From Psychromonas sp. SA13A (GTDB lineage Bacteria > Pseudomonadota > Gammaproteobacteria > Enterobacterales > Psychromonadaceae): a stretch of 64,000 nt of DNA. A program made the translations under genes and the position numbers. Each line of letters starts with the position of its first letter. Position 1 is the stretch's first letter. Shown here piece after piece: positions 15,202 through 25,445 of this stretch. Under the pieces are notes generated by a model, which was given only the letters and a program-made list of their open reading frames with translations, did not search any database and had not been told where the DNA came from. The stretch is taken from the NCBI RefSeq assembly GCF_011378715.1, contig NZ_WTKU01000002.1, forward strand, positions 248,001 through 312,000, read 5' to 3'.

Positions 15202-15682
15202 AGCAGCCTCTAGAAATTTTATCTATGCTGCAATACGTCTTAAACCAATATAAGGATCTGTTTTTAAACTTAGATTCAAATAATTCGTGCGCTAGATTCA
15301 ATCCTTTTTTTGCATAACTACTTTTGCTCATTAAAGGCCTATTCATGAGCAACAAAATACTTTATCAAATTATGGAAATTGAGTCTTTTTATCTAACTTG
15401 GATTCAGATCATAAGTTCGTAAAAGTGATCAAGTAGTATTTCTAGGTATAAACACACCAATACAAAAAGTTAAGTTATTACTTGGGTTAGATTTAGCCAA
15501 TAACTGTAACATTCTAATTTATCAATTTATTAACCATTTAATTTTTGGATCAAATAAATATAAATTAAAAAGCCGTTTAAAGTCTCTTTTAGAGTTTGTT
15601 AATGTATATTTTTTTATATCTGCATGGTAGCTTAAAAAACAAACAGTAAATCATATGTTGTTCGTATGCTGAAGGAGTCGAT
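15202..15682. other. 481-base intergenic region before the ten-gene cluster
   Basis: AT-rich, with no credible gene. It must carry the promoter(s) of the downstream cluster and of the minus-strand gene at its left edge. An 8-bp inverted repeat TTGCTCAT / ATGAGCAA (15324-15331 with 15345-15352) is present. AAGGAG (15671-15676) is a good ribosome binding site for the first cluster gene. No confident -35/-10 pair could be assigned. Confidence 0.6.
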
Positions 15683-16753
15683 ATGGTAGCTACGGTTGGA
15701 AATTATTGTATCTTGGTTGAAGATATTGGCTCTGCTGGAATTCAGGCTATTCTTCAGATTTCAGCCGGCCTTGGGACGCCACCAAATCAAATTGCAAAAA
15801 AAGTCTGCCAAGCACCTTCTGTGCTTATTTCTGAAATTGATTTTGAAAGCGCAGAACAAATAAACCAATTGTTGAAGTCTATTGGATTGAATACTGTCGT
15901 AGACAGTGAAGACAATATTTCCATCGAAAATTGCCAGCTTTATGATGTTGCAATTCGTTACCTTGAAGTTTCTCACTTAAAAGAAACGCTTGATATCATT
16001 TCTCACGTCATTGGACTTGAACCTCAAAAAATACTGTCGTTGTCGTCATTACCTCCTGGCATCATAATTGGCTCAGTCGGGATCGGTTTAATTGATGCTT
16101 TGCAAAAGCGACTAGGTGAAAATGCCAAGTTATTATTTGCTAAGGCCCATGAAGATATCTACGATATTTTTGTCGAAGATACACAATATTTGCCACATGA
16201 ACTAAAAACTAGTTTAGAAAAAACTTATGGGAAAAGCCGAGGATATATACCACTAGATGTTTCTTATGAGGATGCAAAGAAATTATTTGTTAAATTACCT
16301 AAAGGTAATAGTTCAAGGATATTCCAACGTAAATTACTCAGTTATGACCTAGTGTTGGAAAGTGAAAACCATGCTCCTGAGGCAATTAGGGCTCTTGCTC
16401 AAATCCTTGATATGCCAGAAAAAATTGTACAGCGAATTATGCAAAATACGCCAATTGTTGTGGCAGAAGCACTCGATTATGAACAATCTATTCTAATGTG
16501 TGAACTCGCAAAGGAGTCGAACCTTAACTTGACTAATCGACTCTATAATTTTCAACAATACTCTCTCTATGTAGATCAATATCGTCATCACTCAAGCATT
16601 GCGGAGTTAAAAGAGTTTTATGATATTGCTTTGCCAAACCGTTTACCCGCTAAAATCAAAAGCGGTTTTTCTGAACTTGAGTGTCAAATATTAACGCCAC
16701 AATTTGATGCAATGGGGTTGGTCTATCGTTTCGAACAGGAGATGGTTGAATGA
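15683..16753 (+). CDS. Protein of five tandem L7/L12 C-terminal-domain-like repeats
   Basis: A 356-residue soluble protein of unknown function. It divides into five degenerate repeats of 60-75 residues starting near residues 7, 86, 160, 221 and 293, each opening with a beta strand and an acidic residue (YCILVEDI, YDVAIRYLE, YDIFVEDTQ, YDLVLESEN, YSLYVDQY). Repeat 1 follows the ribosomal L7/L12 C-terminal domain closely in pattern: strand, helix IQAILQISAGLG, helix QIAKKVCQAP, strand VLISEI, helix ESAEQINQLLKSIG, strand LNTVVDSED. The similarity is read by eye. The L7/L12 domain is a docking module for translation factors; that role is not implied here. First gene of a ten-gene set with a strong AAGGAG site; its stop overlaps the next start (ATGA). 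Confidence 0.85.
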   Translation: MVATVGNYCILVEDIGSAGIQAILQISAGLGTPPNQIAKKVCQAPSVLISEIDFESAEQINQLLKSIGLNTVVDSEDNISIENCQLYDVAIRYLEVSHLKETLDIISHVIGLEPQKILSLSSLPPGIIIGSVGIGLIDALQKRLGENAKLLFAKAHEDIYDIFVEDTQYLPHELKTSLEKTYGKSRGYIPLDVSYEDAKKLFVKLPKGNSSRIFQRKLLSYDLVLESENHAPEAIRALAQILDMPEKIVQRIMQNTPIVVAEALDYEQSILMCELAKESNLNLTNRLYNFQQYSLYVDQYRHHSSIAELKEFYDIALPNRLPAKIKSGFSELECQILTPQFDAMGLVYRFEQEMVE

Positions 16754-17286
16754 CGGACGCAAACAATCAACAACAATCGCAAAATAATCTCCATTTAGGA
16801 ATTTGTGAGTCAGGTAAACTATTGCATATTGTAGGGCGCTTTGATGATGCACTTGAAAAATATCGAAATGCCATGGTTATGTGTGCTTCACAACATGCTC
16901 CCCAGGTGTTTGCCCGCCACTATGTAGACTGTATTTTAGATTGTTTACAGCATGCTAAACGATTTGATGCTGCGCTTGAATTGTTGGACCAAGCAATTTC
17001 AAATAAAGGCAATGAAAGTCCTGTTGTGATTGCACCATTTCTATTTCGAAAGCTGATTGTTTTATGTCAGCTTGGACAGCACCAAGAGGCTTTGATTTTA
17101 GTCTCAGAGCTGGATTCGACAATGTATGCAGATAGCTCCTTATATCTTGCATTGAAACAAGCATTAGTCCGACGTCAATCGATGCCCGAAAGGTGGTTAG
17201 ATCAAATATTGAATCACCATAAATTTTACACCGTGCGCAAAGATAATGTTGATAAAAAGCGAGCGGAAATAGGACAAAAACATTAA
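16750..17286 (+). CDS. TPR-like helical repeat protein
   Basis: A 178-residue soluble protein, all alpha-helical in appearance. LLHIVGRFDDALEKYRNAM and CLQHAKRFDAALELLDQAI are spaced and patterned like tetratricopeptide repeat helices (G/A-x-F-x-x-A-L-x-x-Y/L), and LCQLGQHQEALILVSELD looks like a third. TPR arrays act as protein-protein scaffolds; partner unknown. It starts inside the stop of the preceding gene (ATGA at 16750-16753), which suggests translational coupling and equal output with the L7/L12-repeat protein. Confidence 0.8.
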   Translation: MTDANNQQQSQNNLHLGICESGKLLHIVGRFDDALEKYRNAMVMCASQHAPQVFARHYVDCILDCLQHAKRFDAALELLDQAISNKGNESPVVIAPFLFRKLIVLCQLGQHQEALILVSELDSTMYADSSLYLALKQALVRRQSMPERWLDQILNHHKFYTVRKDNVDKKRAEIGQKH

Positions 17287-17305
17287 CTTAAAAGGGTAAA
17301 TGCAG

Positions 17306-19087
17306 ATGGCCAAATATGATGGAATGAAACCTGGAGAAATCCTAGCAGATGCAAGTGTTGCTGAATTTATTTCTAGCTTAGGGTTGGGTATTGCCGCCGC
17401 ACAACAAGCTTTGGATGAAAATACTATTAGTCAACTTGGGCAATTTTCATTGCCTCGCGAAGGGCTTGGGAACAGATCTTTGCTTGAACTTGGTTTAATG
17501 CCAGCGTTTTATCACTATCAATACGCTGATATTTCCTGTTCTATGCAAATTAGACTTGAGGTCGGAAAAAGTTTTGAAATAGGTGGTCAGGCAAGTTTAG
17601 ACTTTAACAATGGAAATAATGCTTCTTCGCAAGAAAGTTTAAATCAAAATAGTGAAGAGTCTGTATCAAGTACGACAAGTATTAACCGCACAGCCGAAAT
17701 GAAATACCACGTCACTGAGACTGGGACTATGTCTTTAAACGGTACAAATTATACTGCCACTGGGGCGACACCTGCTTTAAGGCTTAAAAATCTTCGAGAT
17801 CAATTATTAGGAAACACAAGCTCCAATATAGAAGGCTTAGTATATGAGCCTCCCATTACCACTCCTCCTGTATTAAGTACTCTAGCCACAAACGATAAAG
17901 TACTTATACAATCACCATTTGTGACATTTTTAAAAACAACGGTGCCCTATGGTTTTATTTGGATGAAAGCAAACCAAGATACTGATTACATAATTAACGA
18001 TACAACAACAATTCCCACTGTATCAGCCGCTGATCTAGGGACGTATGCGACATCAGTGTTAGCAAGCTTTAGGGTAGCGTTCACCCATCAGGACGACTTT
18101 GTTAGTATGTTCACCCCGCAAATGGCACAAGAGGGGGATGAGTTTAATTCTGTTGCATATGCTACAGGTGTTGCTGAGTTAGAAGGCGACGCACTTGAGG
18201 AGGCAGTGCTGTTGGCAAATTTAGCTAAATATATAAATTTACCTGTTGAAATCGAAGGGTTTACTGACCGTGTAGGAAGTACTGCTAAAAATTTGGAACT
18301 TGGCAAAAGTCGTGCAAACCGGATGAAGGATGTTTTTATTGCACATGGTGTGAATGCAAACTCAATTATCATACGGCCTAGTCGAGGAGAAGCCGCTGCT
18401 GCTGAGGCTGGTGATAACAACGGTACGGCAAATGCGAATTATCGTAAAACGTCTGTCTATATTCCGACACTTGAGTCCTATGTATTAAAAGTGCAATCTA
18501 CAAATACCATTCTTGATAGTGCAGAGATTGCACCTAACGCCATCACCGATACTAACCTGCAAAATGGATGGTTTTATCTTGCACCAACGGAAGCATTAAG
18601 TATTTCGGGAGAGGAACTAAATATTGATAATGGTGCTGCAAATATTCCTTACAGTGGTGGGTCAGTTAATACCATTGCTTCGGGACATGCAAATGCCTAT
18701 GCTGAAAATTTAACGCTGGCAGTAAATGCATTGCCAGGGTATGCCGCCTCAAGAACAGGTGCGACGGTACGAATTATGAAAGCGACCGATACCTATAGCG
18801 TTAAGTTATTTTCAAAAGTTGACCAAAGTGCTGAATTAACAAGTAACGAAACATATCAAGTTACAAAGAATTTTAATAGTTCTACATCATCCACCACAAA
18901 CAGCGAAGAAAATTCTCAGAGTAATTCTACTGTTGCTATTGGAGTATCGGTAGATGCGCGTTATTCACGACAATTTGAAATGGAAGTAACTGGTAACTCA
19001 CAAATATCTGCAAGATTGGTTTCAATACCGGCGCCTCCTGAGTTTCTTAAGGTGATCAAAGAATATCAAAATGGGTTAGGAGAATGA
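17306..19087 (+). CDS. Core-family protein with inserted OmpA-like domain
   Basis: Largest member of the local family, about 593 residues. N-terminal core: helix AEFISSLGLGIAAAQQALDE, then LLELGLMPAFYHY and strands to about residue 90. C-terminal core at about 545-586: VSVDARYSRQFEMEVTG and ISARLVSIPAPPEFLKVI. Between them lie a Ser/Thr/Asn-rich linker and an OmpA-like domain (about residues 254-390: VEIEGFTDRVGSTAKN...LGKSRANRMK...RKTSVYI) that keeps the Asp and Arg used by OmpA domains to bind diaminopimelate. There is no signal peptide or membrane segment, which is odd for a peptidoglycan-binding domain. Start: ATG at 17306 is 9 bases from AAAGGG; the ATG at 17300 is only 3 bases away. Overlaps the next gene by ATGA. 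Confidence 0.85.
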   Translation: MAKYDGMKPGEILADASVAEFISSLGLGIAAAQQALDENTISQLGQFSLPREGLGNRSLLELGLMPAFYHYQYADISCSMQIRLEVGKSFEIGGQASLDFNNGNNASSQESLNQNSEESVSSTTSINRTAEMKYHVTETGTMSLNGTNYTATGATPALRLKNLRDQLLGNTSSNIEGLVYEPPITTPPVLSTLATNDKVLIQSPFVTFLKTTVPYGFIWMKANQDTDYIINDTTTIPTVSAADLGTYATSVLASFRVAFTHQDDFVSMFTPQMAQEGDEFNSVAYATGVAELEGDALEEAVLLANLAKYINLPVEIEGFTDRVGSTAKNLELGKSRANRMKDVFIAHGVNANSIIIRPSRGEAAAAEAGDNNGTANANYRKTSVYIPTLESYVLKVQSTNTILDSAEIAPNAITDTNLQNGWFYLAPTEALSISGEELNIDNGAANIPYSGGSVNTIASGHANAYAENLTLAVNALPGYAASRTGATVRIMKATDTYSVKLFSKVDQSAELTSNETYQVTKNFNSSTSSTTNSEENSQSNSTVAIGVSVDARYSRQFEMEVTGNSQISARLVSIPAPPEFLKVIKEYQNGLGE

Positions 19088-19530
19088 GTAGCGCAGGCGC
19101 AACTGTTCGGGAAATGTCCTCAGCACCACTTCCTGACATTGTAAGTAGTCTTGGACTTGCAATTGCGCAGGGACAATTCGCGCTTGATTTGAATTCTGCA
19201 GAAATTGCAAAAACCTTAACCACCACTGAAATAGAGATTGATGGTAAGAATTATAATCTTCTAGAACTTGGTTTTTTACCTACATTTTATGCCTATACCG
19301 AAGCTACAGTTGAAGCGAAATTGAGCTATACAATCAATGAAAGCACTGAAACAGAGATTTCAGGCGAGCTTACCATTTCTTACGCAGTAGTTGCTGCGAC
19401 AGTGTCTGCTAGTTATGCACGAAAGTTCAGTGTAGAAGCCTCTGGTTCATCATCAATTGCTGCACGATTAGTCGCGCTGCCACCACCTGAAAAATTTTTA
19501 AAAGTACTAAATGCAGTGATTGAACGTTAA
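19084..19530 (+). CDS. Minimal core-family protein
   Basis: A 148-residue protein, the shortest complete copy of the local core: helix PLPDIVSSLGLAIAQGQFAL (residues 15-34), LLELGFLPTFYAYTEATVEA (59-78), a beta-rich middle, then SASYARKFSVEASGSSSIAA (108-127) and RLVALPPPEKFLKVL (128-142). No signal peptide or membrane segment. It aligns with both ends of the 593-residue protein before it, which shows that the larger gene is this core with an insertion. Its ATG overlaps the upstream stop. Function unknown. The general plan (amphipathic helix, then a hydrophobic strand signature) recalls DUF2589-type proteins, an impression I cannot verify. Confidence 0.85.
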   Translation: MSSAGATVREMSSAPLPDIVSSLGLAIAQGQFALDLNSAEIAKTLTTTEIEIDGKNYNLLELGFLPTFYAYTEATVEAKLSYTINESTETEISGELTISYAVVAATVSASYARKFSVEASGSSSIAARLVALPPPEKFLKVLNAVIER

Positions 19531-19558
19531 CCAACAATAAGAGTAAAGGGAGAGCATA

Positions 19559-20425
19559 ATGAGTATTGGCCAAGATCTATTAAACGTACCAATGGGTGAT
19601 ATGATCCGAGATATGGCATTTGCTATTGCGGACAGTCAATTTCAACTCGATCAAAGCAGTATGCGCACTGCTGAAATGATGGGAGGGTTGCAAACCGTTT
19701 ATGACGAAGAAGGTAAAATAAGTTTTGATGATAGTAGAATATTCTTTGGTTATGAATATATGACTGTCAAACAAGCATTAGCTTATGCAATTTTCGACGA
19801 CGGACTAACGGGCGAAATAAATGATGACACATTGAAATTAAAAGATTTAATTCTCGATGTCATTGCAACTTTTGCAGATAAAAATAATTCAACAGGTACT
19901 TCAAAAACAGATAGGAGTGATGTTGTGGATGATGGTGGGAAGTTATCACCAGCTTTGAAGGAATTTGAAGATGAAATCATTCGAGTTCCAACACGTTTAT
20001 CAATGATGGAACTTGGGTTTAGTCCGACATTTTATCAGTTTGTTGATACGATTATTGAAGTAAAAATTGCTATCAAAATGACTCGTGAATCTAGCTATTC
20101 TCGTACCACATCAAAATCTACAAACGATTCAAGTACCGATAAAACGAGAGGGCTAAAGTTCTCGGGTATTAAAGGTTTGAGGTTTGGCTTACTTGCCGCT
20201 AGAAACAATACAACTAGTAATAGTGTGCAAACTACACAGGTAGATGCCACATATTCAAGTAAATATTCGTATTCTGCTGAAGGGGCTACTTTATTGCGTA
20301 CCAAAATGGTGCCTATTCCACCTCCTGCTGTGTTAGAAGATCGTATTCGTCAACGTATGGATATCGAGGCCGAATTGCTAGCACAGCAAATAGAGAACAA
20401 TAAACCTAAAACAAATGAAAGTTAA
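19559..20425 (+). CDS. Core-family protein with acidic insertion
   Basis: A 288-residue protein. Core N-terminal helix MGDMIRDMAFAIADSQFQLD (residues 12-31), core strand signature MMELGFSPTFYQFVDTIIEV (149-168), C-terminal core YSSKYSYSAEGATLLRTKMV (232-251) and PIPPPAVLEDRIRQRM (252-267). Residues 42-147 are an acidic, probably helical insertion absent from its paralogues. The first ten residues (MSIGQDLLNV) are identical to those of the gene at 20516. RBS GGGAGAG. No signal peptide. Function unknown. Confidence 0.85.
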   Translation: MSIGQDLLNVPMGDMIRDMAFAIADSQFQLDQSSMRTAEMMGGLQTVYDEEGKISFDDSRIFFGYEYMTVKQALAYAIFDDGLTGEINDDTLKLKDLILDVIATFADKNNSTGTSKTDRSDVVDDGGKLSPALKEFEDEIIRVPTRLSMMELGFSPTFYQFVDTIIEVKIAIKMTRESSYSRTTSKSTNDSSTDKTRGLKFSGIKGLRFGLLAARNNTTSNSVQTTQVDATYSSKYSYSAEGATLLRTKMVPIPPPAVLEDRIRQRMDIEAELLAQQIENNKPKTNES

Positions 20426-20515
20426 ATAAGCGCACCCAGACCAATCGTCTAACTATTTAATTTTCATTTGGATTCGTGCCCAATCGTGAGGGCTCATAAA
20501 TAGAAAGGAGTTAAC

Positions 20516-21085
20516 ATGAGCATTGGACAAGATCTATTAAACGTACCCTTTCCCGAAATGGTCAAATCAATGGGAGTTGGTATTGCTCAAGCGCAATATG
20601 AACTTGATTTAACATCGATGAAAATTGCAAGGTTGATGGGGGGATATGATATCGAAGAGGATGAGAATGGAAACTCTTCTACAACTGGAGAACGCACTAA
20701 CCTGGTAAAAATTGGCCCTAAAGAAGACGATGAATATAGTCTACTGGAGCTTGGATTTACACCAACATTCTATCAGTTTGTTGATACTTTGATAGAAGTG
20801 AAAATGTCAATATCCATGAGTCGTGAAACTACGCGGGCGAAGAAGATAAAGTCAGGGCAAGTGAATATGTCAGGAAAACTTGGTTTTTTCTCCGCTAAAG
20901 CATCGGTAAATGCGTCATCGGTTTCAGCAAGTTTTTCGAGTAAATACCAGTATTCAGCAGAAGGAAGTTCATTGATGCGAACCAAACTAGTGACTGTGCC
21001 ACCACCACCAATGCTAGAAGAACGCATTCGTCAAATTCTTGATCGAGATGTTAAACCAGTAATTAAACCAGATGGTGAAGCCTAA
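20516..21085 (+). CDS. Core-family protein, paralogue of preceding gene
   Basis: A 189-residue protein with the same core: MSIGQDLLNVPFPEMVKSMG, helix VGIAQAQYELDLTSMKIARL (residues 21-40), LLELGFTPTFYQFVDTLIEV (76-95), SASFSSKYQYSAEGSSLM (137-154), LVTVPPPPMLEERIRQIL (158-175). It closely resembles the 288-residue neighbour without that protein's insertion, so the two are probably a recent duplication. AAAGGAG ribosome binding site. The 90-base gap before it contains no clear terminator. No signal peptide. Function unknown. Confidence 0.85.
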   Translation: MSIGQDLLNVPFPEMVKSMGVGIAQAQYELDLTSMKIARLMGGYDIEEDENGNSSTTGERTNLVKIGPKEDDEYSLLELGFTPTFYQFVDTLIEVKMSISMSRETTRAKKIKSGQVNMSGKLGFFSAKASVNASSVSASFSSKYQYSAEGSSLMRTKLVTVPPPPMLEERIRQILDRDVKPVIKPDGEA

Positions 21086-21118
21086 TATTTCAATTTAACT
21101 TCAGAGGAGTTTGAGGCT

Positions 21119-21961
21119 ATGACACTTAAATCTTGGAAACATCTTCTTGATGAAGTTGATGAGCCCTTGAAAGATTTTGAAAAAAATCCATCAAAAGAAA
21201 TAGGAAAATTGCTTACAGAAGATTCTAAAATTTCTAAGCTGCTCCTCGAACGTAAAAATCTTGAAGCAAAGATGAGTTTCCTAACCCAAAAAAATGGTGA
21301 AAATGATTCAAGCTCCGACCCTCGATTTCCGGTACAAACGTTATCCCAACGGCGTAATGAGGATGCCCGTTGGCTTGCTCAACGTAAGGAAATTTTTTCA
21401 AAAGCAGAGGTGCAATCATCACGCCAACTTATTAGAGCACAACACCCCACTGCAACTGGGACTGCCAGAAAATTACGAACAGGGCAAACTGCTTTCAAGC
21501 AACGTAGTTCGCTAAAAGATTTTGATATTGAAAAACCTCTGCAAAGCTTGAGAGACAAAACAAATTTAGAAAGTGATAAAAAATTAAAGCAACATAAAGA
21601 TAAATTACTTACCAAGTTACAAGAAAAACTTAACAGTGTTGGTAATGAAATGATTGATGACACACTAAAGAATGGATTTTCAAAGGATAAATTGAGTAAA
21701 AAAGCTAAAGAACAAACCCTAGAGATTGTTCGTAAAGCAGCTAAAGCTAAGGAAAGTTATGAGTCAAGAAGGAATAAATTACTTTCAGTTATCAACGGGG
21801 GATCGGGTGATTTGGATGCAAGAGCAAAACTGATTTCTGAACGTTTAGAAAAAATGGCTGAAACAGGTGTGGATAATGGAATGAAAGATCGAGATGCTTC
21901 TCGAGATAAAAATCGAGACGAAAATAGATTGAATAGCATTAAAAATAGATTGAGGGGTTAG
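21119..21961 (+). CDS. Charged coiled-coil protein of the cluster
   Basis: A 280-residue, highly charged protein rich in Lys, Glu, Arg and Asp, predicted by eye to be mostly helical with coiled-coil stretches (about residues 28-60, 140-200 and 210-255). It has no recognisable domain, signal peptide or membrane segment. The C-terminal end is a run of Asp/Arg/Lys-rich repeats (KDRDASRDKNRDENR). It may be a scaffold or bridging component (inference from composition only). GAGG-type ribosome binding site; it ends 2 bases before the next start codon. Confidence 0.75.
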   Translation: MTLKSWKHLLDEVDEPLKDFEKNPSKEIGKLLTEDSKISKLLLERKNLEAKMSFLTQKNGENDSSSDPRFPVQTLSQRRNEDARWLAQRKEIFSKAEVQSSRQLIRAQHPTATGTARKLRTGQTAFKQRSSLKDFDIEKPLQSLRDKTNLESDKKLKQHKDKLLTKLQEKLNSVGNEMIDDTLKNGFSKDKLSKKAKEQTLEIVRKAAKAKESYESRRNKLLSVINGGSGDLDARAKLISERLEKMAETGVDNGMKDRDASRDKNRDENRLNSIKNRLRG

Positions 21962-21963
21962 CT

Positions 21964-22578
21964 ATGCCAGATTCGACCAAAGTGACTGCGCAAGGGATAC
22001 AAGATATGTTAACAGCGCTTACCGATGCACTAGGAGCATCTCAGGCTCATTTATCTTCGATGGCAGCATATGATGCAGCTGGACGAGAATTACCGCGTTA
22101 CCATATTCCACACTTAGATTTTACTTTTGATATCGAAGCTAGCCAGTCTACTCAACCAGGTGTTGGCTTTAAAATGGGGCCAAGGGAATCGAGTAGTGTC
22201 GAAACAAGTGCAAAAATTTCAGGCAGGATTGTATCTATTCCTCCTAATGCCGGTTTACCTAAAATTGAAATATTAATTGAGTTGGCATCACAAAAAATAA
22301 TAGCAACATTAATAAATGAAGCTGGTGAGATGATGACCAATACACAGATTAGTGTAGAGATCGATAGTGAACTAACGGTCCAAGCAGGTGGAACACAACC
22401 AACATCAAATCAAAAGACATCTCTTTTAGTTGCTCAACAGTATTTGACAGATGCAGGCGGCATTGCCCAAATAGATATTGTCACGGCACAGTTACATGCA
22501 ACCAAACCGATTGTCATACGTATATCTAGTGGGAATACTGAGAGTTATATTGCGGTCACTAAGGGAGCATTAGCATGA
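21964..22578 (+). CDS. Divergent core-family protein with beta-rich C-terminal domain
   Basis: A 204-residue protein. Residues 10-92 look like a diverged copy of the local core: helix GIQDMLTALTDALGASQAHL, then LPRYHIPHLDFTFDIEAS where relatives have ELGFxPTFY, then SSSVETSAKISGRIVSIPPN matching the C-terminal core. Residues 98-204 are beta-rich (IIATLINEAGEMMTNTQISV, then TDAGGIAQIDIVTAQLHATK), in the style of an Ig-like or carboxypeptidase-regulatory-like domain. No signal peptide. It overlaps the next gene by ATGA. Function unknown. Confidence 0.75.
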   Translation: MPDSTKVTAQGIQDMLTALTDALGASQAHLSSMAAYDAAGRELPRYHIPHLDFTFDIEASQSTQPGVGFKMGPRESSSVETSAKISGRIVSIPPNAGLPKIEILIELASQKIIATLINEAGEMMTNTQISVEIDSELTVQAGGTQPTSNQKTSLLVAQQYLTDAGGIAQIDIVTAQLHATKPIVIRISSGNTESYIAVTKGALA

Positions 22579-23630
22579 TCAAAGTAATCGTAGTTGAAGG
22601 CCAGTTTATTAGTGACATACCTTTACAAAAAGTTGAAATGGTAGTTGTATTAGAGTGCTTTTCAATACCTAAAGGTTGGATTAAAGTTTCTGATCTTCCA
22701 TTTGATAAAAATGGTGTGTTCTCTCATAAAGTTAACCCCGAATCATTCATCAAGCTAACAAGTTTCCCTGCAATTAGACTGCGTATTGTGCATCCAGAGC
22801 TCGACAACAAAATTGCAATATTATTAACATCGCCTGTTATTTCTGTGAAAGGAGAAACTAGTTTTTTGTTAAACTTTGGCACTATTTTTATTGACCCTAA
22901 AAGACCTCTTGAGCTTATATCTACGATCCATGAAAAAGCTGACACATCATTTTATGGTTCCATAGTAAAGGTAAATAACGTTGCCGATTCGATTTCTTCT
23001 AACGATTTAGAAAATAGCTTACGCAAAAAAGTATCTGAATTAAATGTGGCTAAAATAAGCCTTGAGGAAGAACTGAGTCTGGTTAGAAAAAATGCAATAG
23101 TTGCCATTGATGCAAAAGAGTTGGGTGATGTACAAGTTAAAAAACTCCAAAGTGACCTTGAAATATTACAAGGGGGGGCTGAAGCACCTAAAATTAATGA
23201 CATAGCCAATGAAATATCTCAAGCGATGCAAATTGATAGTGCAAGTACGGGATATAAAATCTCAACAGCTAATGTCAAACTTAAAGGGTACATGGCTAAT
23301 GGTGGCAGGAGTTTTCGTGCGCTTGATGCTGTTGAGTTAGCCCGTGTTAATCCAGAAACTGCAAGTGAAATTAGTTTTACTCTAAGCAACACCAATAATG
23401 ACAGTTCTTCATCGCAAAAGGCGCCAGACATTGTTGGGCTTACACCCGCTACTGCGAGCCGTGTTTTATTACCCTTGGGGTTAAAATTACGCGTTATTGA
23501 GATGGAACAATCAACCAGCCCAACTGGAGGAATTTTTATGCAAAAACCAGATCCTGGAACAGAGATCCTTTTGGGAGAAAATTTTATTTCGGCTTTTGTG
23601 GCGGTTAAAAGAGGGGGGCAGAAAATATGA
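22575..23630 (+). CDS. Beta domain, coiled coil and C-terminal PASTA-like domain
   Basis: A 351-residue protein. Residues 1-135 are beta-rich without a family I recognise; 143-198 are helical, probably coiled coil (NSLRKKVSELNVAKISLEEE); 203-272 may be a remote core-like segment (ISTANVKLKGYM); 282-346 match the PASTA pattern (APDIVGLTPATASRVLLPLG ... QKPDPGTEILLGENF). PASTA domains of Ser/Thr kinases and PBPs usually act outside the membrane, but no signal peptide or transmembrane segment is visible here. Starts in the upstream stop (ATGA) and overlaps the downstream start (ATGA). Confidence 0.78.
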   Translation: MIKVIVVEGQFISDIPLQKVEMVVVLECFSIPKGWIKVSDLPFDKNGVFSHKVNPESFIKLTSFPAIRLRIVHPELDNKIAILLTSPVISVKGETSFLLNFGTIFIDPKRPLELISTIHEKADTSFYGSIVKVNNVADSISSNDLENSLRKKVSELNVAKISLEEELSLVRKNAIVAIDAKELGDVQVKKLQSDLEILQGGAEAPKINDIANEISQAMQIDSASTGYKISTANVKLKGYMANGGRSFRALDAVELARVNPETASEISFTLSNTNNDSSSSQKAPDIVGLTPATASRVLLPLGLKLRVIEMEQSTSPTGGIFMQKPDPGTEILLGENFISAFVAVKRGGQKI

Positions 23631-24304
23631 GTGATTTTAAAAAATTAACTCAAGATATTGCCACGGCACCACTGGGTGATATTATCGCATCGGTTGGGCG
23701 CGGTGTTGCCGAAGCACAAAAAGCGCTCGACGAAAGCTCAATTCAAGCCTATTTAGATCTTTATTCCGATCAAGCCCATTTAAAAGCGTTACGGGAGTTG
23801 GGGTATCGACCGACCTTTTATACCATTCCAAAAGCGAGTGCAGAAATTAACCTTGCATTTACTATTTCGGGTTCGTCACAAAGCGAGGGAATAAATAATC
23901 AATCCCTTGTTAGTCGCCAGGTTATGGCTCCAAGTAGTAACATTAATTTAAATAACAAGTTGCAGACGTTAAAGGTTTCTCAAACACGACGTGTTGTACC
24001 AAAACTTTATGCTTCACCTGTGGATGCAGGTTTTCAAAATCAATATAATTATGAAAGCAAGGTCAGCGCAAAAATTATTTTCGATGTTGTGGCTATCCCT
24101 CCTTCAAGTGAAATTGAAAATAGTCGCCCAGTTCCTAATGTCGTTGGGAAAACATTGGCACAAGCAACTTTGATACTGGATAGTCTTGATCTTAATGTTG
24201 AAACAGAAATTGAGGATGAAACTACAGTGATAGGGGGGCAAAACCCGGATCCTACAATTGTTGTATTTTTAAGCGTGGGTGAAACTGTACAGCTATTACC
24301 ATAA
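23627..24304 (+). CDS. Core-family protein with C-terminal PASTA-like domain
   Basis: A 225-residue protein and the last gene of the cluster. Core helix LGDIIASVGRGVAEAQKALD (residues 16-35), RELGYRPTFYTIPKASAEIN (56-75), C-terminal core FQNQYNYESKVSAKIIFDVV (136-155) and AIPPSSEIE, then a PASTA-like domain at 167-225 (RPVPNVVGKTLAQATLILDS ... GGQNPDPTIVVFLSVGETV). No signal peptide. It joins the core fold and the PASTA module in one chain, tying the upstream PASTA gene to the family. Translationally coupled to the previous gene by ATGA. Confidence 0.82.
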   Translation: MSDFKKLTQDIATAPLGDIIASVGRGVAEAQKALDESSIQAYLDLYSDQAHLKALRELGYRPTFYTIPKASAEINLAFTISGSSQSEGINNQSLVSRQVMAPSSNINLNNKLQTLKVSQTRRVVPKLYASPVDAGFQNQYNYESKVSAKIIFDVVAIPPSSEIENSRPVPNVVGKTLAQATLILDSLDLNVETEIEDETTVIGGQNPDPTIVVFLSVGETVQLLP

Positions 24305-24475
24305 GTAGAGATCATTAGAACAACCATAAGCATCTACGATTAATACTAAAAACTGGTTTATTTGATATTTTAAATGTTGATTTATTACATACTTGATGAG
24401 TATCGATGACTATAAGTTACTTACTCTAAAGTAGTGTTTGTTTAAATTAGCTCTGCCGATATTTGTAGTTTTTAT

Positions 24476-24508
24476 TCTAGTGCCGTAAATTATATTCACG
24501 GCACTAGA
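24476..24508. repeat. Inverted repeat after the ten-gene cluster
   Basis: Perfect 11-bp arms TCTAGTGCCGT (24476-24486) and ACGGCACTAGA (24498-24508) around an 11-base AT-rich loop, 172 bases past the last cluster stop and 86 bases past the ybbN stop on the other strand. There is no T run on either side, so it is not a standard terminator, though it could form a strong RNA hairpin. The rest of 24305-24593 shows nothing recognisable. Confidence 0.7.
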
Positions 24509-24593
24509 TAGTTACTCGTTATTCTAACCTTGATCTATTTAATACAAGCTCCAGCAATTTTAAAACAGCGATATAAAAAGAATGTTACCTACT

Positions 24594-25445
24594 TTAATAC
24601 AGTAAACTATAAAGTTTACGGCGGTATTCAGAGACTAATGCCGCATCATCTACTGTGGCCAAAATATCTAACATGGTTTTTTTTGCATCGCCATTTTCAT
24701 AACCTAAGTCCTGGCATAACAGACTATATAAAAGAGCAAGCGCTTCACTAAAGCGTTTGTTTTGATGGTATTGAATCGCAAGTTGGTATTGAATCGGTTG
24801 TTTATTCGAAGCATCGATTAACGCATTTTCTAACGCTATTATTTCTGGCGTTTGTGCTGATTGTTCAGCGAGTTTTAACTCTGACATCAAGCTATGATAA
24901 ATCATATTTTGATCTGCCATAGGAATCACCGCTAAGATAGGTTTTGCATTTTCAAACTCACCCAATGCTAAATAAATTTGTGCCGTTGCAAGTTTAATTT
25001 GGTTATCTTCAGGATTAAGATTTTGCGCTTGCACAATTGTTGCTTTCGCTTCATCTAATTTACCTTGAGCAAATAGTGTTTGCGCATCACCTAACAACGA
25101 TTGCGCTGGGTCGGGAAGGTGTTTATTGATGAAGTTATTGATGAAGTCAGCATTTTGCTCTCCAGCAAAACCGTCTACACCTTGTCCATTAACAAACATG
25201 TAAACAGTTGGAACACTTTTTATTTCAAAATGCTGCACAATTTGCTGTTCTGTCTCGCAGTTTATTTTCGCGAGTGTAAAGCCATTAGCATGTTCTCTTT
25301 GTAGTTGTTCAAGTAAAGGCAACAAAGAACGACAGATAGTGCATTGGCTTGACCAAAAAACAGCCAGCACAGGTTTATTCACTGAACCTTGTGCAATAAT
25401 AGTTTGAAAATCTTGCACGGTTACATCAAATATATCTGCTTGCAT
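24594..25445 (-). CDS. ybbN: Thioredoxin-TPR co-chaperone YbbN (CnoX)
   Basis: Holdase co-chaperone that passes clients to GroEL and DnaK, acting in the cytoplasm during oxidative (HOCl) stress in E. coli. An N-terminal thioredoxin-fold domain (residues 1-108) is followed by TPR-like helices to the C-terminus (KLDEAKATIVQAQNLNPEDN, YLALGEFENAKPILAV). Its 283 residues match the family. The active site here is C35-T-I-C38; as I recall, the E. coli protein has SxxC and lacks redox activity, so this copy may keep oxidoreductase function. It has its own promoter region, divergent from dapA. Confidence 0.93.
   Translation of the reverse strand: MQADIFDVTVQDFQTIIAQGSVNKPVLAVFWSSQCTICRSLLPLLEQLQREHANGFTLAKINCETEQQIVQHFEIKSVPTVYMFVNGQGVDGFAGEQNADFINNFINKHLPDPAQSLLGDAQTLFAQGKLDEAKATIVQAQNLNPEDNQIKLATAQIYLALGEFENAKPILAVIPMADQNMIYHSLMSELKLAEQSAQTPEIIALENALIDASNKQPIQYQLAIQYHQNKRFSEALALLYSLLCQDLGYENGDAKKTMLDILATVDDAALVSEYRRKLYSLLY

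Follow-up and report, generated by a model that had tools for sequence, protein, structure and literature searches.

A set of ten co-directional genes in Psychromonas

Here we describe a set of ten genes in a 64,000-nucleotide stretch of the Psychromonas sp. SA13A genome (contig NZ_WTKU01000002.1, positions 248,001 to 312,000; hereafter the window). As an earlier note made from the letters alone had proposed, the open reading frames (ORFs) of the window place ten consecutive genes, g1 to g10, on the + strand at window positions 15683-24304. Five of the encoded proteins are clear paralogues with a common core and a sixth is remotely related to them; the core is itself a remote homologue of the DUF2589 family, the order of the ten genes is kept in distant bacteria, and part of the relatives have neighbours that encode wall-cutting enzymes, which hint at a role in breaching or handling the cell wall. 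Four junctions (g1/g2, g3/g4, g8/g9 and g9/g10) are 4-base ATGA overlaps, one fewer than had been counted before, and the remaining five are gaps of 2 to 90 bases. An inverted repeat with 15-nt arms that are 93% complementary lies 3' of g10 on the + strand (24476-24508) and is a possible terminator.

The core is present in g3 (17300-19087, 595 amino acids (aa)), where an OmpA-like domain with D323, N331 and R338 kept is placed between the two hairpin strands in the core alignment; in g4 (19084-19530, 148 aa), which is a minimal core; in g5 (19559-20425, 288 aa), with an insertion that precedes the hairpin; in g6 (20516-21085, 189 aa); in g10 (23627-24304, 225 aa), followed by a PASTA domain; and, in divergent form, in g8 (21964-22578, 204 aa), which adds a beta domain that looks Ig-like by eye. 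The first gene of the conserved set, g1 (15683-16753, 356 aa), encodes repeats resembling the C-terminal part of ribosomal L7/L12, one detected by profile and the others by eye, and its family alignment matches ribosomal L7/L12 among Protein Data Bank (PDB) profiles (E 4e-4). The TPR-like g2 (16750-17286, 178 aa) has orthologues in other sets, g7 (21119-21961, 280 aa) is a basic charged protein (pI 9.84) with a coiled coil by eye and an N-terminal motif common to most of 14 aligned positional-orthologue rows, and g9 (22575-23630, 351 aa) combines a beta domain and a coiled coil, both by eye, with a C-terminal PASTA domain. Most of the domain labels given earlier hold: OmpA in g3 (2e-9) and PASTA in g9 (2e-6) and g10 (2e-5) pass the Pfam cut-offs and L7/L12 has its profile match, with the TPR matches of g2 staying below the curated cut-offs. 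Scans of the ten proteins against NCBIfam, PHROGs and PADLOC gave OmpA- or PASTA-type matches plus weak ones, and g4-g6 have no Pfam match at E up to 1.

A shared core with remote kinship to DUF2589

An all-against-all phmmer search of the ten proteins joins g3, g4, g5, g6 and g10 into one group (E 8.9e-42 to 4.1e-8), with g3 and g5 connected only via other members. Pairwise similarity of g8 to these five was not found in this search, so that the six-member family of the earlier note stands as five clear paralogues plus one remote relative, recognised by profile comparison and predicted fold. Against the core profile, the g8 family reaches E 5e-5, g8 alone 8.1e-5 (reversed control 0.041), and the family enlarged with its counterpart c2 from the compact sets described below 1.1e-5 (reversed control 0.27). 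An AlphaFold2 model of g4 from a 70-sequence alignment (mean pLDDT 70.3, pTM 0.53; a guide only) predicts a helix at residues 16-47, long strands at 68-89 and 112-132 that form a beta-hairpin whose tip is of low confidence, and a C-terminal helix. The model of g8 (from 27 sequences; pLDDT 77.4, pTM 0.56), with a helix at 3-32, strands at 50-61 and 79-90, a low-confidence tip and then a more confident beta domain, suggests the same plan of a long N-terminal helix and beta-hairpin. The paralogy search, Pfam and the profile comparison together bear out the idea of a shared core decorated by differing domains. The core helix is amphipathic in 65 of 70 alignment rows; for the strands, amphipathicity exceeds that of shuffled sequences (p<0.05) in 30 of 70 rows for the first and 2 of 70 for the second, and this mixed picture makes any pore idea speculative.

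The resemblance of the core to DUF2589, offered earlier as a guess, proves real and remote. The core alignment matches nine DUF2589 proteins with an hhalign E of 5.2e-7 (prob 92) and 17 such proteins with 1e-9 (1.4e-10 in the other direction; prob 96.5-96.9, 173-174 columns), all single-pair values, against 0.11 for a reversed control, 0.34-0.71 for five column shuffles, and 0.62 and 0.052 for two other families of the set. At the level of the Pfam model (PF11655), 1 of 70 core members matches (E 2.7e-4) and the ten window proteins do not at E up to 1; judged from these alignments, the core is a remote relative of DUF2589, a collinear superfamily kinship and not Pfam membership. Searches against the PDB found no relative of the core profile at E up to 10 and none of the DUF2589 profile. 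The accession PF11655 was not found in the open-access literature searched, and a keyword search of the literature for the whole domain constellation returned nothing. DUF2589 is named in a single paper of that literature, which reports Archaeoglobus genes AF0414-AF0417 as up-regulated and gives no function.

Distribution and mobility of the set

Scanning 84,980 species genomes with an alignment of three sequences yielded 295 candidate stretches, of which 230 were confirmed; among the 80 of these 230 that were listed, labelled hosts include Proteobacteria, Flavobacterium, Chloroflexi, cyanobacteria, Clostridia, Aquificales, Fibrobacter, haloarchaea and methanogens, many of them metagenome-assembled genomes (MAGs) in which a misplaced contig is possible. 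Gene orders were read with a composition-aware ORF caller and family profiles. At least 13 genomes besides that of the window have the full ten-gene order, with an ORF in the g7 slot; among them are alpha-, beta- and gammaproteobacteria and one Flavobacterium. Eleven were read as such by the caller (L072, L079, L082, L088, L090, L096, L097, L098, L099, L100 and L105), and two that it had mislabelled, L095 (g7 slot) and L080 (g1, g2 and g9), were confirmed on checking. With the window and L083, whose set is cut by a contig end just past the start of g7, these make 15 ten-gene loci, four of them from Caulobacter. Compact sets are found in many bacteria and archaea in the order c1, core, core, c2, coiled coil, and in haloarchaea as core, core, core, coiled coil, c1. 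Close to home the set is rare: a profile search found sets in 3 of 369 genomes of the class, the window's own included, and looking for g6 relatives (E up to 0.001) in 59 other genomes of the order, 23 of the same genus, gave none.

Several features of the smaller sets deserve mention. Genes for the small protein c1 (e.g. L027:9619-9915) start or end many compact sets. This protein has a likeness to a subtilisin propeptide (0.011 and 0.026 for the best PDB hits) and no match among Pfam inhibitor families, and a protease was not seen beside most of the c1 genes listed. We considered whether c1 is the same as an 86-91-aa companion of DUF2589 genes and dropped the idea (E 0.7). By eye, the c2 protein L040:4118-5086 has a PASTA-like stretch and a helix-hairpin-helix-like tail, and loci from the gut archaeon Methanimicrococcus (L070:9321-14817) and from Fibrobacter (L101:8281-13743) have in common an expanded layout with large cores and low-complexity and TPR-like proteins. 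Coiled-coil genes lie on either side of an archaeal core pair (L102:168-1268 and L102:2949-4652).

Several lines of evidence point to horizontal movement. A bioD-like gene, a 156-aa gene and a TPR-thioredoxin-like gene border the set in the window. In G003, a sister genome, the flanking genes, whose proteins are 84-98% identical to those of the window, are adjacent, with about 290 bases separating the 156-aa gene from the TPR-thioredoxin-like gene; g1, g3, g4 and g10 have no match there, nor at the corresponding site of four further genomes of the genus. Some 200 bp of this empty site correspond to about 9.3 kb in the window (approximately 15301-24594, no strand assigned), with no target duplication recognised, and the GC content of the set is 0.388 compared to 0.366 in the remaining window. 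A tree built on the concatenation of nine proteins (14 loci) places Roseitranquillus, which we take to be an alphaproteobacterium, as sister to two Marinobacterium sets at 58-59% identity, and a gammaproteobacterial MAG branches outside this group. Moreover, a Sphaerotilus plasmid carries a compact set whose first core protein is 69-81% identical to relatives labelled Chloroflexi, Gemmatimonadales, cyanobacteria and Clostridia. The empty sister site, the tree placement, the plasmid copy, the GC content and the high identity across phyla fit a unit that has apparently moved horizontally between distant bacteria.

Predicted wall-binding residues and cell location

The OmpA-like domain of g3 suggests a link to the cell wall. 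In OmpA-like domains D, N and R residues have defined roles in peptidoglycan binding, and the corresponding predicted signature, residues 323, 331 and 338 in the window protein, is kept in all 15 orthologues (four from Caulobacter). PASTA domains bind wall fragments in other proteins. A crude hydropathy test, in which the highest 19-residue Kyte-Doolittle mean per protein ranges from 0.54 to 1.64, agrees with the earlier note that the ten proteins lack typical signal peptides and convincing membrane segments. The note's further label of a cytoplasmic assembly is nevertheless doubtful in view of the conserved OmpA residues and the cell-wall hydrolases encoded next to some relatives.

Peptidoglycan hydrolases near DUF2589 genes and core sets

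Matches to DUF2589 occur in 5 of 200 genomes from the phylum of the window, 14 of 247 genomes of the Flavobacterium phylum, five plasmid records and viral contigs. An unannotated 4-kb phage record from human faeces (MT839761.1:3308-3859) also encodes a DUF2589 relative (E 7e-10 and 2e-11). We read the neighbourhoods of 24 DUF2589 loci: five from the phylum, five from plasmids, 11 from Bacteroidota (in 10 of the 14 matching genomes) and three virus contig types (L128, to whose type L129-L131 were assigned, L169 and L171); L170, in which only 37 query residues matched, was left out. In 12 of the 24, on viruses, plasmids and chromosomes, a Pfam-confirmed peptidoglycan hydrolase gene lies within about 3.5 kb of DUF2589. 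The families are varied: GH19 (L124 and L127), Amidase_3 (L125), SLT (L132 and L133), N-acetylmuramidase (L134), phage lysozyme (L135), DPBB (L128), M15_4 (L162 and L171, closely similar genes that are not independent), CHAP (L163) and GH108 (L169). In the other 12 loci, which were scanned in part, no peptidoglycan hydrolase was seen by eye. Other neighbours include an alpha/beta hydrolase (L164) and a DUF922 protein (L126). A gene that by eye resembles Tc-toxin B or RHS (L168:2622-6818) follows a DUF2589 trio of Bacteroidota at a distance of about 230 bp.

Of the virus types with DUF2589, one is a tailed phage that has a terminase and a head protein, one a provirus that encodes a P2-type coat protein, and one an element in which a tail sheath and a tape measure are present. 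Since these three have no common virion architecture, DUF2589 is unlikely to be a virion part and would rather serve an accessory function. In the P2-type coat provirus (L169:8776-10959), a GH108 endolysin gene is followed 2 bp downstream by a DUF2589 pair and a companion of the 86-91-aa type, a group that is a candidate for an unrecognised lysis module. In L171 (4829-10576) a tail sheath gene is followed by genes for an M15 endolysin, a patatin phospholipase and DUF2589, and the latter three also occur together in the chromosomal locus L162. Viruses yielded no member of the window family itself: scans of viral contigs with window or core queries gave no relative, a relative of the Sphaerotilus core was absent from the phage collection, and the plasmid collection returned Sphaerotilus only. 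Pfam and PHROGs scans of the ten proteins gave no convincing match to a sheath, tube, baseplate, capsid or portal protein, the weak ones being a virion structural family for g8 (0.0017), a tail tube family for g2 (0.19) and the P22 ejection protein for g1 (0.31). The statement that no known phage component is recognisable needs amending for the remote DUF2589 kin in three virus contig types, and the suggestion of a specific capsid, filament or tail finds no support in these scans.

Hydrolase genes also occur next to some core sets. In at least three of the 15 ten-gene loci one lies just upstream of the set (L095, L098 and L099, with gaps to g1 of 289, 16 and 18 bp), encoding M15_4 with PG_binding_1 in L095, CHAP with PG_binding_1 in L098 and CHAP in a contig-cut gene in L099; L069 likewise has M15_4 with PG_binding_1, and L091 a GH19 relative 2.6 kb from its first core. 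A search of 83 core loci (1.3 Mb), in which the L095 hydrolase was its own query, found no further such gene. This search included near-duplicates; the neighbour listing left out L044, L050, L054, L063, L077 and L078, which are short or nearly duplicate other loci, and L026, which copies L006, whereas the search kept every one of these but L026. Within 3.5 kb of the sets, the numbers expected from genome-wide counts and observed are 0.003 and 2 for GH19, 0.018 and 3 for M15_4, 0.011 and 2 for CHAP, and 0.09 and 3 for PG_binding_1, the M15_4 panel having taken in 9 of the 14 Bacteroidota genomes that match DUF2589. The corresponding Poisson P values (8.8e-7 to 1.1e-4) are overstated, because the families were picked after the neighbours had been sighted, L069 is in two panels owing to its hit, and L098 and L099 are 80% identical. 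Among 16 hydrolases (the 12 near DUF2589 and four near core sets), with gaps ranging from -17 to 2021 bp, 12 have no hydrophobic N-terminus, and the L099 gene is cut at its 5' end. A gene in L064 that looks lysozyme-like by eye has no Pfam match and was not counted, the same holds for genes in L025 and L076, and the Pfam match of a lipase-like gene in L075 is under the cut-off. A gene between cores in both L076 (11276-12073) and L091 (9118-9978) encodes what looks by eye like a glycoside-hydrolase barrel, the L076 protein being without a Pfam match.

Discussion

Because the gene set is conserved as a block, a multi-subunit assembly is its natural reading. We tentatively favour the view that this would be a soluble assembly that works with lytic enzymes on or across the cell wall, encoded by a self-contained, horizontally moved set. 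In such a scheme paralogues of a DUF2589-superfamily core, an amphipathic helix followed by a long beta-hairpin whose tip or tail bears OmpA, PASTA or Ig-like domains, would build the assembly, which would meet peptidoglycan through these domains and work alongside lytic enzymes that mostly lack an export signal of their own. It would most resemble an accessory to lysis or wall breaching, by which such enzymes are positioned, held or released, and in Psychromonas the partner may be a hydrolase encoded elsewhere in the genome.

A number of observations weigh against this proposal. Hydrolases were found beside just five of the 83 core loci (L069, L091, L095, L098 and L099) in a search that was not exhaustive, no hydrolase or endolysin gene adjoins the set in the window, and the enrichment is inflated by the post hoc choice of families. 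Hydrolases are present in just two of the 11 Bacteroidota DUF2589 loci, and the enzyme link is wider than the wall, with subtilisin (L159 and L165), trypsin (L160) and patatin (L162 and L171) also near DUF2589. Three of the 16 hydrolases (L128, L132 and L133) do have a hydrophobic N-terminus. The lack of a convincing membrane segment in the ten proteins means that none is a classical holin, and g8 has no direct DUF2589 match (hhalign 0.015 and 0.11). Finally, haloarchaea and methanogens have no murein, so that wall action is not universal among compact sets; either partner enzymes differ in archaea or the wall link is a derived use.

Some of these points suit a cytoplasmic scaffold, compartment or filament without an envelope role, in which the OmpA, PASTA and Ig-like domains would be protein-binding modules and the hydrolase neighbours chance or, in some lineages, cargo. 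The unseen export signals, the small number of core loci with hydrolases and the archaeal compact sets, with two or three cores and a coiled coil, would all be compatible with this; however, the strict conservation of the peptidoglycan-binding residues and the recurrence of hydrolase neighbours above genome-wide expectation, even for families chosen post hoc, lead us to consider it unlikely. Delivery to other cells is a further reading that we hold to be quite unlikely: the set would encode a particle or apparatus loaded with lytic enzymes, proteases or lipases, its cargo being the hydrolases encoded nearby. The diversity of hydrolases near DUF2589 and the surface-type domains in g3, g9 and g10 would fit such delivery, but the Pfam and PHROGs scans revealed no convincing known delivery part, and the position of DUF2589 beside a provirus's own endolysin suits lysis better. 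A defence or conflict module akin to Trypco2 or protease ternary systems, which could account for the patchy distribution, the recent insertion, weak Trypco2 hits and the proteases near some DUF2589 genes, is very improbable given that Trypco2 (PF19631) membership was rejected by profile comparison (core E 0.0077, prob 5; g8 0.15), that PADLOC matches are weak (g9 2e-4 in the PASTA region, g3 0.0012 in the OmpA region, g7 0.044) and that the ten proteins have no NTPase family hit.

Returning to the wall-associated assembly that we favour, a bolder extension, which we regard as improbable, is that the DUF2589 superfamily constitutes a new lysis or wall-crossing device, in which soluble subunits, with their amphipathic helices and long beta-hairpins, would form a pore or translocating ring through which hydrolases without export signals get to the wall; unrelated viruses would use it for lysis, and the chromosomal ten-gene machine would add peptidoglycan anchors. 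The work matters in several ways. Genomes as far apart as Flavobacterium and Marinobacterium keep the operon order, archaea carry compact kin, and no described system matched it in the libraries scanned (Pfam, NCBIfam, PHROGs and PADLOC). The link between DUF2589 and hydrolases in three virus types, plasmids and chromosomes offers this widespread family its first function that can be tested, and could point to a route by which enzymes reach the wall without signal peptides or classical holins.

It is instructive to compare the set with known systems. Trypco2 is similar in its helix and strand plan by eye and gives weak hits for g8 and 2 of 70 cores, but profile-profile comparison does not support kinship and Pfam finds neither a trypsin nor an NTPase in the ten-gene set. 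DUF2589 (PF11655) is a remote homologue of the window core over its full length, and its genes resemble the set in being carried on plasmids and in viruses and in having divergent paralogues as neighbours, with DUF2589 pairs in several loci as g3-g6 and g10 are in the window; by contrast, the ten-gene set adds OmpA, PASTA, TPR, L7/L12-like and coiled-coil genes, and the Bacteroidota loci mostly have one DUF2589 gene and two other companions. Phage lysis cassettes consist of an endolysin plus a holin and spanin. The set differs from these in having no membrane holin and, in the window, no endolysin gene, and in being kept as ten genes in chromosomes; the likeness lies in its DUF2589 kin, which occur as a pair 2 bp from the endolysin gene in the P2-type coat provirus and, in two further virus contigs, at 1.1-1.6 kb from genes of endolysin type.

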